Part shown: in pieces, positions 1-58,049 of the stretch | Numbering within the stretch: the first letter of the stretch is position 1 | How the letters are laid out: each line of letters opens with the position of its first letter | Source of the DNA: an uncultured Prevotella sp. | Lineage (GTDB): Bacteria; Bacteroidota; Bacteroidia; Bacteroidales; Bacteroidaceae | DNA: 64,000 bases | Direction: 5' to 3' | Assembly (NCBI GenBank): GCA_900315545.1 | Contig: OMZM01000006.1 | Location: 1-64,000, forward strand | Program-made: the position numbers and the translations under genes | The notes under the pieces: model-generated | What the model saw: only the letters and a program-made list of their open reading frames with translations | Databases searched by the model: none | Told to the model about the DNA's origin: nothing

Positions 1-445
1 TGGGGTCGTTTACTGTCGCGTGAGTGGCGGCGAAAGCCGTTTCGGAAATCTGAGGGGCAAAATATGCGGGTATTTTGAATGTTATTGTAATTATCTGAGG
101 GTCAGGATGATAGCGCGGAGGGTGGCGGTTTTGAGGGCGAAAGAGAAGTGTTAAAATTGTCAAAGAGTATGTTTGAGATTGTCAAACACACTGTTTGAGG
201 CGGTCAGACATAGTGTTTGGGGGTATCGGGCACTGTGTTTTGCAGGGCTAAAAACATGAAATAGGCGCGTCAAAGGTACTCTTTGACAATTTTAACAGTT
301 GTGTTTGGATACGGAATTAACAGATTTTTGCAATTTCAGAGGGTAAAAAATTTCTATTTGGAGAGTTTTTGTCTGTCAAAAGTTTTCATATTTTTCGGGG
401 TCGCAACGGAAGGCGCGAACACTTTGGCACGGTTTTTGCAGGGAG
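1..445 (+). repeat. Dispersed intergenic repeat, copy 1 (cut by window start)
   Basis: This noncoding repeat recurs at 12662-13130 (minus), 23672-24146 and 33539-33977. It starts in a block with tttactgtcgcg (9-20) and ends in ggcacggtttttgcagggag (426-445). Its core is bounded by an 18-bp inverted repeat, gttaaaattgtcaaagag at 150-167 and its complement at 279-296. Between the arms are several TCAAAC/GTTTGA words facing each other. No reading frame is conserved among the copies, so I treat it as noncoding. Whether it is a mobile element remnant, a structured RNA or a protein-binding region is unknown. Confidence 0.8.
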
Positions 446-485
446 ATGACAACGGGAACGATAACCTTAACGGGAACGGGAAATA

Positions 486-12576: not shown

Positions 12577-12661
12577 CCGGCCATGCAGCGCCACCTGCCA
12601 ACACACATATTTCCATACACGACATGCCTGCTGATTTTCCGACCGTATTATTCCGCGCACA

Positions 12662-13130
12662 GCAAAAACCGTGCCAAACTCGTCAGAATTATCTTTCGAG
12701 CAGAAAAATGATGAAAAATTTTGACAGAGAAAAATCGTTCAAATAGATTTTTTATAACCCCTGAAACTGCAAAAATCTGTTAATTCCAAGACCGGTTACA
12801 ACTGTTAAAATTGTCAAAGAGCCTCTTTGACACGTCTATTTCATCATTTTTGCCCTGCCGAACACAGCATACGACACCCCCAAACACTATGTCTGACCTC
12901 CTCAAACAGTGTGTTTGACAATCTCAAACATACTCTTTGACAATTTTAACATATACAATTCACGCGCAAAAGGCTTACTCTTTGCACTATCATCTTGATT
13001 GCCAGACAATTACAGACACATGCGATTTTTGGGCATATTTTGCCCCTCTGATTTTCAAAACGGCTTTCGCGGGCACTCTCGCGACACTAAACGAGCCAAA
13101 ATTGATTAGCATTACATCCACAAACTACTA
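12662..13130 (-). repeat. Dispersed intergenic repeat, copy 2
   Basis: Inverted copy of the family seen at 1-445. The end block gcaaaaaccgtgcc is at 12662-12675 and the start block cgcgacactaaa at 13080-13091; similarity to copy 3 continues through attgattagc to about 13130. The 18-bp arms are at 12804-12821 and 12933-12950. It fills most of the 694-bp gap between the flippase and the PKD protein gene. I see nothing else in the gap except the 13271 gene promoter. Confidence 0.8.
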
Positions 13131-23671: not shown

Positions 23672-24146
23672 CACTTTGTGGCGAGAAAACATATAATCAA
23701 TTTTGCCTCATTTACTGTCGCGAGAATGCCCGCGAAAGCCGCTTCTGAAATCTGAGGGGTAAAATACGCCCAAAATTCGCATACATTTGTAATTCTCTGA
23801 CAATCAATCCGTTACACACAAACACAAGTCTTATACGCAAGAAAAGTATATGTTAAAAAAGTCAAAGAGTATGTTTGACATTGTCAAACACACTGTTTGA
23901 GGGTATCAGACATAGTGTTTGGGGGTGTCGCACACTGTGTTCGGCAGTGCAAAAAAGGCGAAACAGGCATGTCAAAGGTACTCTTTGACAATTTTAACAG
24001 TTGTATCCGGTCTCGGAATTAACAAATATTTGCACTTTTAGGGGCTATATTTTTTCTATTTGGAGAGTTTTTCTCTGTCAAAAATTTTCATACTTTTTCA
24101 GTCCGAAAGAAAAATCCGTTGAGTTTGGCACGGTTTTTGTAGGGAG
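23672..24146 (+). repeat. Dispersed intergenic repeat, copy 3
   Basis: The most complete copy. The start block tttactgtcgcg is at 23711-23722, with similarity to copy 2 reaching left to about 23672 (tttgtgg, ataatcaa). The arms are at 23852-23869 (with two changes) and 23981-23998, and the end block is at 24123-24146. Between the arms, gtttgacattgtcaaac is a perfect palindrome. The repeat ends five bases before the stop codon of the Fur-like gene. The rest of the 699-bp gap (23520-23670) shows no feature I recognise. Confidence 0.8.
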
Positions 24147-31063: not shown

Positions 31064-32677
31064 ATGGCTAAGTTTGACAAGAAAGTATTGGAGCAGTATG
31101 GCATCACAGGTGCTACGGAAGTGCTCTACAACCCTACCTACGAGGTGTTGTTCAACGAAGAGACGAAGGAAGGTCTGACTGGTTTCGACAAGGGACAGGA
31201 GACCGAGCTGGGTGCTATCAACGTAATGACGGGTGTCTATACCGGTCGCAGTCCTAAGGACAAATTCATCGTTGACGATGAAAATTCGCACGACACGGTA
31301 TGGTGGACAAGTGACGAATACAAGAACGACAACCACCGTGCTACGCCAGAGGCATGGAAAGCCGTTAAGGAACTGGCTAAGAAAGAGTTGTCGAACAAGA
31401 AGCTCTATGTTGTCGACGGCTTCTGCGGTGCCAACAAAGACACACGCATGAAGGTGCGCTTCATCATGGAAGTGGCATGGCAGGCACATTTCGTTACAAA
31501 CATGTTCATATGTCCTCAGACTGAGGAAGACTTCGAGCAGGAGCCCGACTTCATCGTCTACAACGCGTCGAAGGCTAAGGTTGAGAACTACAAGGAGCTT
31601 GGTCTGAACTCAGAGACAGCCGTTGTCTTCAACGTAACGAGCCGCGAGCAGGTCATCATCAACACTTGGTATGGCGGCGAAATGAAGAAAGGCATGTTCT
31701 CTATGATGAACTACTACCTGCCGCTGAAGGGCATTGCAGCCATGCACTGCTCGGCAAACTGCGACATGAACGGCGAGAACACAGCCATTTTCTTCGGACT
31801 TTCAGGCACAGGCAAGACCACGCTCTCTACCGACCCGAAGCGCAAACTCATCGGCGACGACGAGCACGGATGGGACGACAACGGCGTGTTCAACTTCGAA
31901 GGCGGATGCTATGCTAAGGTCATCAACCTCGACAAGGAGAGCGAGCCAGACATCTACAACGCCATACGACGCGATGCGCTGCTCGAAAACGTTACGGTAG
32001 ACAAGGACGGCAAGATAGACTTTGCCGACAAGAGCGTAACCGAGAACACCCGCGTAAGCTATCCTATCTATCACATAAAGAACATTCAGCGTCCTATATC
32101 TCACGCTCCGGCAGCAAAGCAGGTAATCTTCCTCAGTGCCGATGCCTTCGGCGTACTGCCTCCAGTGAGCATTCTCGATGCTGAGCAGACAAAATACTAC
32201 TTCCTCTCAGGCTTCACGGCAAAACTTGCAGGAACGGAGCGCGGCATCACAGAGCCTACTCCTACCTTCTCGGCATGCTTCGGACAGGCTTTCCTCGAGC
32301 TGCATCCGACAAAATATGCAGAGGAACTCGTTAAGCGCATGAAGCAGAGCGGTGCTAAGGCTTACCTCGTAAACACAGGCTGGAACGGCACTGGCAAGCG
32401 CATTTCCATAAAGGATACGCGCGGCATCATAGACGCTATTCTTAACCACTCGATAGACAGTGCGCCGACAAAGCAGATACCTTACTTCAACTTCACTGTT
32501 CCTACACAGCTCGAAGGCGTAGATCCGGCTATCTTAGACCCGCGCGACACATACGCTAACCCTGCCGAGTGGGAAGAGAAGGCTAAGGACCTGGCTGGCA
32601 GATTCATAAAGAATTTTGCAAAATACGAAGGCAACGAGGCTGGAAAGAAACTCGTAGAAGCCGGACCGAAGCTTTAA
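31064..32677 (+). CDS. pckA: Phosphoenolpyruvate carboxykinase (ATP)
   Basis: A 537-residue enzyme that interconverts oxaloacetate and PEP with ATP. It has [11 protein letters not shown], the PEPCK signature with [24 protein letters not shown] split over kinase-1a and -2 motifs (P-loop near residue 246), and [10 protein letters not shown] and [13 protein letters not shown] further on. Length is normal. In Bacteroidetes it mainly runs toward oxaloacetate during fermentation to succinate and propionate. The last 28 codons are present a second time at 33448-33534. No hairpin follows directly; the next hairpin is after the AT-rich lipoprotein gene. Confidence 0.97.
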
Positions 32678-33447: not shown

Positions 33448-33534
33448 ATGGCTGGCAGATTTATAAAGATTTTTGCAAAATACGAAGGCAACGAGGCTGG
33501 AAAGAAACTCGTAGAAGCCAGACCAAAGTTGTAG
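33448..33534 (+). pseudogene. Duplicated 3' end of pckA
   Basis: Positions 33449-33530 match the pckA end (32592-32673) with about five differences in 82 bp. The frame is kept: an ATG replaces a CTG and 28 codons follow to a TAG ([20 protein letters not shown] and on). Most changes are silent or mild. A 28-residue peptide with only the last PEPCK helix would have no enzymatic function. Dispersed repeat copy 4 begins about five bases after the stop. Confidence 0.85.
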
Positions 33535-33538
33535 ACTT

Positions 33539-33977
33539 ATAATCAAAATACCCTTCTGAATACTCGCGTATTTGCGCACTTGAAACATCTTGGGCTCAAA
33601 TATACGAGTATTTTGTGTGCATTTTTATTCATCTGACATACAGCACGTTAGCCCTAAACACAAGCCATGTGTGCAAGAAATATGAGTGTTAAAATTGTCA
33701 AAGAGCATGTTTGAGATTGTCAAACACACTGTTTGAGGAGGTCAGACATAGTGTTTTGGGGTGTCAGGCATTGTGTTTTGCAGGGCAAAACAAACGAAAT
33801 AGGCACCTCAAAGGTACTCTTTGACAATTTTAACAGTTGTTTCCCACTCGAAATTTCACATATTTTTGCACTTTCAAGGCATGTTCCGATTCTATTTTGC
33901 AACTTTTTCTCTGTCAAAAAAAAGTCACAAATCGCTTAAATTTTCCGCATCAAAAATTTTTGGCACACTTTTTGCTG
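33539..33977 (+). repeat. Dispersed intergenic repeat, copy 4
   Basis: The most diverged copy. ataatcaa at the left end and tactcgcg match the start block weakly. The core with arms at 33688-33705 and 33817-33834 is well kept, and ggcacactttttgctg at 33962-33977 matches the end block. The rest of the 918-bp gap before 34205 holds the terminator, the pckA duplicate and a promoter. Confidence 0.75.
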
Positions 33978-34121
33978 CGAAAACCACAAAATATGTTTCA
34001 TGCAATGCGATTATATATATTATCCTTCACTCGGATTGCGACCAGATAAGACTTACAACCTATATATTTGCAAAGTAAATCAAAAAAAACATTCACATAG
34101 TTAGATTTTTTAACAAGGGAA

Positions 34122-45726: not shown

Positions 45727-45821
45727 TTTTACAGACCGTTTGTAATGCTTTTACAAGTGCTCTGTAATCTTTTTACAGATACTCTGTAATGATTTTACAA
45801 ACGCCTTGTAAAAACCTGTAA
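45727..45821. repeat. 22-bp-period palindrome array A
   Basis: Three full copies of TGTAAN-N3-NTTACA lie at 45741-45755, 45763-45777 and 45785-45799, each separated by exactly 7 bp, with a half copy before (ttttaca, 45727-45733) and a degenerate copy after (45807-45821). A related array is at 57953-58049. It sits between the small RNA promoter and the glycosyltransferase promoter. Confidence 0.8.
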
Positions 45822-49457: not shown

Positions 49458-49865
49458 ATGAGAAGATTTATTTTATCAGCCGTCATGATTGTTACGGCAC
49501 TCACATTTACACTTGATGCAAACGCACAGAATGAGAAAAAAGAAGTAATGCAGAAGAAAACAGAGCGCACAACCAAGCTGGCAAAGAGAGGCGACGTAAA
49601 GAAAGTTGACGCCATGACAGCAGCAACAGCTAAGACTGAACAGGCTGAAAAGAAGTGCGACGGTTGCAAGAAAGCTGACGGACAGTGCCCAAAGGCTAAG
49701 GCTGAAGCGGAAAAGAAGGAATGCTGCAAGGATAAGGCAGCAAAGGCAGAAGACGCAAAGTCTTGCTGCAAGAAAGAAGCAGCTGTGGCTGAGAAGAATT
49801 GTGGCGGATGCAAGAAAGCTGACGGACAGTGCCCAAAGGCTAAGGCTGAAGCTGAAAAGAAATAA
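49458..49865 (+). CDS. Secreted Cys-rich repeat protein, unknown function
   Basis: A 135-residue protein with signal peptide (MRRFILSAVMIVTALTFTLDANA). The mature part is almost only Lys, Ala, Glu and Cys. It has ten Cys: two copies of CxGCKKADGQCPKAKAEAEKK and two CC pairs between. The two copies come from a tandem DNA repeat of 144 bp. It has no recognised fold; the Cys spacing would suit metal binding or disulfide linking. The DNA after the stop continues as a degraded further unit, so the protein was once longer. It follows the M20 gene by 41 bp and ends before a strong hairpin. Confidence 0.75.
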   Translation: MRRFILSAVMIVTALTFTLDANAQNEKKEVMQKKTERTTKLAKRGDVKKVDAMTAATAKTEQAEKKCDGCKKADGQCPKAKAEAEKKECCKDKAAKAEDAKSCCKKEAAVAEKNCGGCKKADGQCPKAKAEAEKK

Positions 49866-49886
49866 TGCTGCATGAAATAAGCTAAC
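49643..49886 (+). repeat. 144-bp tandem repeat inside and past the Cys-rich gene
   Basis: The 44-bp block at 49665-49708 is repeated exactly at 49809-49852, offset 144 bp (48 codons). The similarity goes on through the stop codon: gaaggaatgctgcaag in unit 1 corresponds to aaataatgctgcatg in unit 2. Confidence 0.8.
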
Positions 49887-57917: not shown

Positions 57918-57952
57918 GCGGGAATATTTTTACAGGATTTTCAGAAGTATCT

Positions 57953-58049
57953 TGTAATTCGATTACAAGATACTTGTAACGGCGTTACAGACTGTCCGTC
58001 ACGCTGTTACGGAGTATTTGTAACACCATTACAATCCGTTTGTAATTTT
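57953..58049. repeat. 22-bp-period palindrome array B
   Basis: Copies of TGTAAN-N3-NTTACA lie at 57953-57967, 57975-57989 and 58019-58033, with a mutated one at 57997-58011 and a half copy at 58041. Each step is exactly 22 bp. The array sits between two convergent genes, unlike array A. Confidence 0.8.

Follow-up and report, generated by a model that had tools for sequence, protein, structure and literature searches.

Two kinds of intergenic repeat array, unrelated in sequence and built on the same 22-bp period, occur along the chromosome of an uncultured Prevotella species. These marks are more regularly spaced than random intergenic placement would give. Even spacing over two unrelated sequences, near-fixed length, a period of two helical turns and placement at gene borders together indicate protein-bound marks. 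The repeats may therefore be protein-bound chromosomal marks that would divide the nucleoid into segments of about 12 kb. We put this explanation, with its putative protein and proposed function, a little short of an even chance.

The repeat in the window and in the genome

The window is the whole stretch of DNA that was analysed, 64,000 nucleotides long. A sequence-only reading had listed four copies of an intergenic repeat in it, and this repeat is real: a profile places all four copies at 295-475 bits. Pairwise alignment of the copies gives long identical runs. A repeat search of the window finds inverted arms at 3-406 and 12694-13097 (404 nt, 79% complementary), and a 247-nt block that is common to copies 1, 3 and 4, with 78-85% identity to copy 1. 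These copies are called type-1 here. The earlier list lacked two arrays of a second kind, type-2, near 45.7 and 58.0 kb; their ends, as given below, were set by eye.

4..444, plus strand: copy 1, type-1 (frame of about 450 bp); profile 400 bits over model positions 18-457, and alignment
149..297, plus strand: core of copy 1, a dyad array of 22-bp period between the inverted arms TGTTAAAATTGTCAAAGA and TCTTTGACAATTTTAACA
12657..13111, minus strand: copy 2, type-1, full length; profile 470 bits
12803..12951, minus strand: core array of copy 2
23692..24145, plus strand: copy 3, type-1, full length; profile 475 bits
23851..23999, plus strand: core array of copy 3
33592..33979, plus strand: copy 4, type-1, divergent; profile 295 bits over model positions 68-456, and alignment
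33687..33835, plus strand: core array of copy 4
45727..45816, no strand assigned: type-2 array of TTACAG-N5-CTGTAA dyads, 22-bp period, without the type-1 frame; lag-22 scan and unit scan
57930..58045, no strand assigned: type-2 array with a 22-bp period and an outer TTACAG arm; lag-22 scan and unit scan

Because the window begins at base 1 of its contig (C22), roughly 15 bp are missing from the start of copy 1. The order of blocks that was said to be common to the four copies holds for the core and the right half. On the left it fails in copy 4, which in the alignment lacks the tttactgtcgcg, gcgaaagccg and tgaggggcaaaat blocks and has only a degenerate end (TATAATCAAAATA) from about 33537. 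A convergent Fur-family gene (PF01475) has its 3' end 5 bp from the end of copy 3. The marks of both types stand at 0.2, 12.9, 23.9, 33.8, 45.8 and 58.0 kb in the window, and the next one, beyond it, stands at 67.1 kb.

Other repeats are also found here. The 3' end of the PEPCK gene (PF01293), at 32592-32676, is duplicated at 33449-33533 (93%), 857 bp downstream and just before copy 4, and a 182-aa ORF without a Pfam match sits between the two. This looks like a past insertion or duplication. A 48-nt repeat (485-532 and 1835-1882, 96% identical) lies on both sides of the first ORFs of the window. Two 86-nt repeats (91%) lie at 49643-49872, inside a small ORF that is rich in Cys and Lys by eye. 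Finally, degenerate AACNNN hexamer arrays adjoin the right end of some copies (window 451-480, C17:451-486 and C17:89017-89028). As a signature of retro-insertion these tails were rejected: 19 short arrays occur in 443 kb, several of them away from any element.

The genome of the host (G000) is a draft assembly of 2.29 Mb in 56 contigs, 92% complete. A BLAST search of it with copy 3 scored 40 copies, each about 430-446 bp long, out of 165 first-look candidates. A type-1 profile was built from 30 genome copies. On nine contigs, which total 1.09 Mb or 48% of the genome, it yields 74 copies that score 90 bits or more. Profile fragments below 90 bits and overlapping opposite-strand matches are not counted as copies, while the 74 take in five hybrids, described below, a partial copy that adjoins a complete one, and several copies truncated at contig ends. 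Contigs C17, C18, C22 and C36 start within copies. Extrapolation from this 48% gives about 153-155 copies in the genome. The repeat is therefore not confined to the window; its copy number is high, and lower than the hundreds per genome that had been projected.

The length of the repeat is nearly fixed. Among 55 full-length copies, 52 measure 449-457 bp, most commonly 453-455 bp, and the other three are two of 441 bp, cut by contig starts, and one of 434 bp. Mean pairwise identity in this set is 76.7%, with a median of 0 indel runs per copy. Mean r2 between columns is 0.25 at 1-2 bp, 0.07 at 6-11 bp and about 0.03 past 50 bp. The ends of the element are sharp: in the 30-copy consensus the left one reads TAATCAATTTT and the right one TTTGGCAC..TTTTTG. 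Copies less than 16 kb apart share 80.8% identity, compared with 76.6% for copies on different contigs (0 of 5000 permutations). Nearby copies are thus more similar, which indicates local copying and is counted against the reading as marks.

The core array and its replacement

In the type-1 core (TGTTAAAATTGTCAAAGAG...), the half-sites TCAAA and TTTGA alternate at 11-bp steps. A 17-bp inverted repeat and a 5-bp spacer form a unit of 22 bp, or two helical turns, and the units are arranged between outer inverted arms. Conservation has a strong 11-bp component in the core and none in the outer parts. An alignment of 46 copies shows next to no variation in the arms of the first dyad; in the second and third dyads, variation is mainly A-to-G on one arm.

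The 22-bp period can be detected without a family model. Autocorrelation at a stricter threshold finds 78 arrays at lag 22 on the nine contigs, versus 0-1 at each of 12 other lags. Of the 87 lag-22 arrays at a looser threshold, 20 are not within type-1 copies: 15 type-2 arrays and five of neither family. The type-2 array, with its TTACAG-N5-CTGTAA dyads, has the same period as type-1 and an unrelated sequence. A scan for its unit finds 20 arrays, five inside type-1 frames and 15 solo; the reversed sequence has none. At C17:83408, 3.8 kb from a type-1 copy, lies a strong lag-22 tandem repeat (AGCAAACTGCAACCATATATAA type) that belongs to neither family.

The five hybrids keep the left and right parts of type-1, the right core arm included, and carry a type-2 array as their core. 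Since the core is swapped within a type-1 frame, the array is a replaceable module. Hybrids measure 431-434 bp, about one 22-bp period below the commonest length, and helical phase may be kept across the replacement.

Such a core could also belong to a structured regulatory RNA family expressed from the repeats, as the sequence-only reading had proposed among other roles. The core can form a long stem with inner hairpins, and two dyads favour G-U pairs on the plus strand, with 51 and 174 cells versus 7 and 1 for A-C. RNAalifold energies favour the plus strand as well, a preference that is partly circular because G-U is counted on the strand given. A structured RNA was rejected because the core folds well, yet compensatory changes in the 22-bp dyads are almost absent (46 copies). 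The core is also replaceable by an unrelated array. The repeat has no match to an Rfam family above the cut-off: only a tRNA reaches it in the whole window, and the best match of copy 3 is mir-190, at 21 bits against a cut-off of 48. A regulatory RNA thus finds no positive support here and is highly improbable.

Spacing, gene borders and spread of the copies

Spacing was mapped on the nine contigs, 48% of the draft assembly, with gene calls made in this analysis. The null for type-1 consists of 5000 random placements in intergenic gaps. One of 65 type-1 intervals is shorter than 6.5 kb, against a null mean of 23.5 and a minimum of 14, and 50 of the 65 fall between 6.5 and 16.5 kb, against a null mean of 22.3 and a maximum of 35. 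None of the 15 solo type-2 arrays lies within 5 kb of a type-1 copy, where the null mean is 8.7 and 0 of 10,000 simulations are as low.

Type-1 and type-2 merged give 88 marks and 79 intervals, with a mean of 12.3 kb, a CV of 0.354 and a minimum of 5.66 kb. The null CV has a mean of 0.845 and is never below 0.62. Marks less than 1 kb apart were merged for this count, which removed one interval of 0.46 kb. The five looser-threshold lag-22 arrays of neither family are kept out of the merged marks and are included in a test that uses the lag-22 detector alone. This test reproduces the even spacing. At a threshold of.66 the detector gives 78 arrays with a CV of 0.46, and 1 of 69 intervals is below 5.5 kb, where the null has a mean of 20.6 and a minimum of 10. 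At.61 it gives 87 arrays with a CV of 0.476, and 5 of 78 intervals are below 5.5 kb (null mean 26.1, minimum 14).

The marks also differ from other gaps in their gene surroundings. Convergent gaps account for 26 of 81 marked gaps, compared with 24 of 203 gaps that measure at least 150 bp and bear no mark, and tandem gaps for 31 of 81 compared with 121 of 203 (chi-square P about 1e-4). For 31 matches checked against our own gene calls, distances to genes are positive except for one of -4 bp. Relative to the copy, the strands of the upstream and downstream genes are opposite/same in 21 cases, same/opposite in 19, opposite/opposite in 17 and same/same in 10; these counts leave out 7 of the 74 copies, which have no called gene on one side. 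At C17:130332-130928, a purH-like gene call ends early, after an MGS domain and the first 59 positions of AICARFT, possibly through a frameshift or a gene-call error.

Enrichment at convergent borders would fit transcription control, whether the repeat is a sigma-54-type promoter plus enhancer array or a bidirectional terminator or insulator. The right end, TTTGGCAC..TTTTTG(C/T), is similar to the -24/-12 consensus of sigma-54. RpoN is encoded in the genome, which also has one strong activator match, and TTTTGGCACG follows one of the 15 solo type-2 arrays (C35:3891), whereas the other solo arrays lack such an end by eye. Sigma-54 promoters have an invariant GG and GC at -24 and -12. In the repeat, however, 17 of the 54 ends that are readable (of 55) have T for C at -12, and the downstream gene is on the strand of the copy in only 31 of 67. 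The reading as a sigma-54 promoter or enhancer was rejected on this mixed gene orientation and variable -12 base. The even spacing is left unexplained by a promoter and by a terminator or insulator alike, and transcription control in any of these forms is quite unlikely.

The main rival to protein-bound marks is selfish spread with long-range exclusion. In that case the repeats would be non-autonomous mobile elements, existing arrays would inhibit insertion in their vicinity, and even spacing would be a by-product. Long-range target immunity occurs in Tn7- and Mu-like transposons. Insertion exclusion, and not selection, could be what produces the even spacing, and selfish spread of this kind could be the source of the copies too. 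Sharp ends and the greater similarity of neighbouring copies agree with a mobile element, and so does the small number of carriers. Type-1 has a BLAST match in 5 of 399 genus genomes when 2 candidates per genome are scored, a search in which divergent copies may be missed; the five are the own genome, one with a truncated copy (G005), and three with short array-only matches. The rumen MAG genomes RUG13423 and RUG753 contain two copies and one copy, so carriers number at least two. Among 17 other genomes of the same genus, one has a match, which is a truncated copy, and BLAST matches 2 of 30 relatives, the own genome and one truncated copy included. The full type-1 element is nearly confined to its own genome.

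Several properties argue against a mobile element. In 51 copies, the best k-mer matches for a target-site duplication (k 3-8) stay within the range of shuffled partners. The consensus ends, TAATCAATTTT... and ...TTTTTGCAGGGAG, are by eye not inverted copies of each other. A PF01797 search of the own genome for the Y1 (REP-associated) transposase gives 0 matches, while 5 of 14 control genomes are positive. Exclusion would have to act between two families of differing sequence, the merged spacing peaks at 9-10 kb, above the minimum distance, and there are almost no indels despite 77% identity. Copy 3 has no match in plasmid and phage records, and viral contigs have no match to a core pattern. 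A classical MITE was rejected on the lack of a duplication, of inverted ends and of a variable direct-repeat number, the length being near-fixed.

The non-autonomous element of the earlier proposal thus survives as a possible origin, given the nearly one-genome spread and the similar neighbours; the duplication, Y1 transposase and terminal inverted repeats that were looked for did not appear. Mobile elements with exclusion are, all in all, an unlikely explanation of the spacing. The same proposal had also named a chromosomal organiser, and this role is favoured by the even spacing, the type-2 arrays in the gaps, the near-fixed length and the preference for convergent borders.

Two of the scarce copies in other genomes have unusual surroundings. 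The sole copy of G005 is truncated (L056 1501-1679 and beyond) and adjoins a transposase-like region, which we take, by eye, to be an IS3-type transposase on the minus strand. The element of RUG753 is interrupted at L058 6660-6751 by a sequence that, by eye, looks like the beginning of a group II intron.

If the repeats are protein-bound marks, one or more putative dimeric DNA-binding proteins would coat the array, with its 22-bp dyad step of two helical turns, on one face of the DNA. Marked intergenic sites, one per roughly 12 kb, would act as loop anchors or barriers. These putative anchors would split the nucleoid into the segments described, with convergent borders preferred. The array geometry, the regular spacing, the exchange of two array sequences in one role, the scarcity of indels and the spread of 22-bp arrays over most sampled species of the genus, with none in the outgroups sampled, are shown by the data; we infer that protein is bound, that it bridges or insulates, and that selection, not insertion bias, preserves the spacing.

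Arrays in related species and known systems

Arrays with a 22-bp period are found in most of the sampled species of the genus. In 839 kb from nine other species, autocorrelation finds 25 arrays at lag 22, 11 at lag 44, 5 at lag 23 and no more than 2 at any of 16 other lags. At least one lag-22 array is present in eight of the nine species; G010 has none in the 39 kb sampled. The outgroups sampled, four genomes from other families of the same order together with E. coli (419 kb in all), have 0 arrays at lag 22 and one match each at lags 17 and 23. At the stricter threshold, density per 100 kb is 1 in G149, 2 in G016, G129 and G132, and 5 in G056, G040 and G175. Array density varies by species, and the period of about 12 kb is therefore not genus-wide.

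Two or more different 22-bp families seem to lie side by side in G056, G040, G175 and G016; for instance, G056 has TTACCAG-N3-CTGGTAA and AACTTTGTT (by eye). In G008 (L128), another tandem repeat with CTTTGCTTCCACGTGCGGTTA-like units adjoins a 22-bp array.

The type-1 dyad pattern occurs in 43 of 200 genus genomes at up to 3 mismatches, mostly with one or two matches that are perhaps due to chance. The reversed pattern cannot serve as a clean control, because it matches the arrays of other species: in several of them it hits a different array at dozens to more than 200 overlapping positions.

The arrays of one species, G157, are of the ACAAAsTCGwCGAsTTTGT type, about 100 bp long and, among the matches listed, 12-42 kb apart. 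On 11 contigs with at least two arrays among the matches listed, 0 of 15 intervals are below 12 kb, against a null mean of 6.8; the four fully listed contigs (C1-C4) alone give P 0.11. Among the matches listed, these arrays look evenly spaced too. A first comparison of their placement with that in G000, made before a matched control, gave 4 of 10 against 16.4%. With the matched control the counts are 7 of 22 and 5 of 34 (Fisher P = 0.12), leaving out L188-L190, which contig C1 covers. Conservation of array placement between the two genomes is suggestive only.

These arrays may form a chromosomal ruler. Fast-diverging 22-bp dyad arrays would be read by a matching putative protein, and selection would keep one array per segment, about 12 kb in the present species. 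Array sequences would be interchangeable in one slot because geometry and spacing matter, not sequence. We regard this as possible and, on balance, doubtful.

Species-specific sequence, constant geometry and even spacing would also be expected of uptake, packaging or recombination signals, with one recognition array per piece of about 12 kb and dialects among species. DNA uptake sequences are evenly spaced along genomes. They are about 10-12 nt long and far denser than marks some 12 kb apart. The marks described here are intergenic arrays of about 90-455 bp, unlike such short, dense words, and signals of this kind are very unlikely. As genome-wide marks that differ among related species, the arrays do resemble the uptake-sequence dialects of Neisseriaceae, as these appear in the portion of PMC3630211 drawn on here.

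Other known systems share some of these properties. The BIME/REP sequences of enterobacteria are likewise high-copy intergenic palindromic repeats. In contrast to them, the present repeats have a 17-bp dyad array with a 22-bp period, even spacing, and two unrelated sequences in one role. REP/BIME may come with RAYT, whereas a Y1 (RAYT-type) transposase was not found in the own assembly (PF01797). The matS/MatP, Noc and SlmA systems likewise organise or mark the nucleoid through dispersed dyads that bind protein. Each of those dyads is a single short site, whereas the marks here are multi-site arrays, present on all nine contigs examined.

Porphyromonas gingivalis belongs to the same bacterial order as the host of the window. 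Its BrickBuilt MITE, as far as the consulted part of PMC4596501 describes it, is also intergenic, with a short tandem repeat between a conserved leader and tail. BrickBuilt has 23-nt direct repeats in variable number, elements of 84-991 nt in 19 copies, inverted-repeat ends and a GAAA duplication (same part of PMC4596501). Type-1 differs from that description in its 22-bp dyad period, its near-fixed length and the absence of a duplication in the search made. Even spacing or interchangeable arrays appear in neither the BIME/REP nor the BrickBuilt description, within the parts of PMC6907758 and PMC4596501 used. The repeats are therefore rated as a new kind, with a putative function. Among the matches listed, open-access literature gave no paper on these arrays or on a comparable evenly spaced intergenic repeat.

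According to the sections used of a review of the E. coli nucleoid (PMC6907758), BIME slows supercoil diffusion, and BIMEs have been proposed as domain barriers. The same sections treat the nature of topological-domain barriers as an open question and describe barrier placement as apparently random. The evenly spaced marks of two types look less like scattered mobile junk than like a system for organising the chromosome. If they are one, the barrier question would become testable in a genome whose marks, of two interchangeable types, are visible, evenly spaced and defined by sequence, and intergenic repeats that are otherwise taken as mobile junk would have a role.
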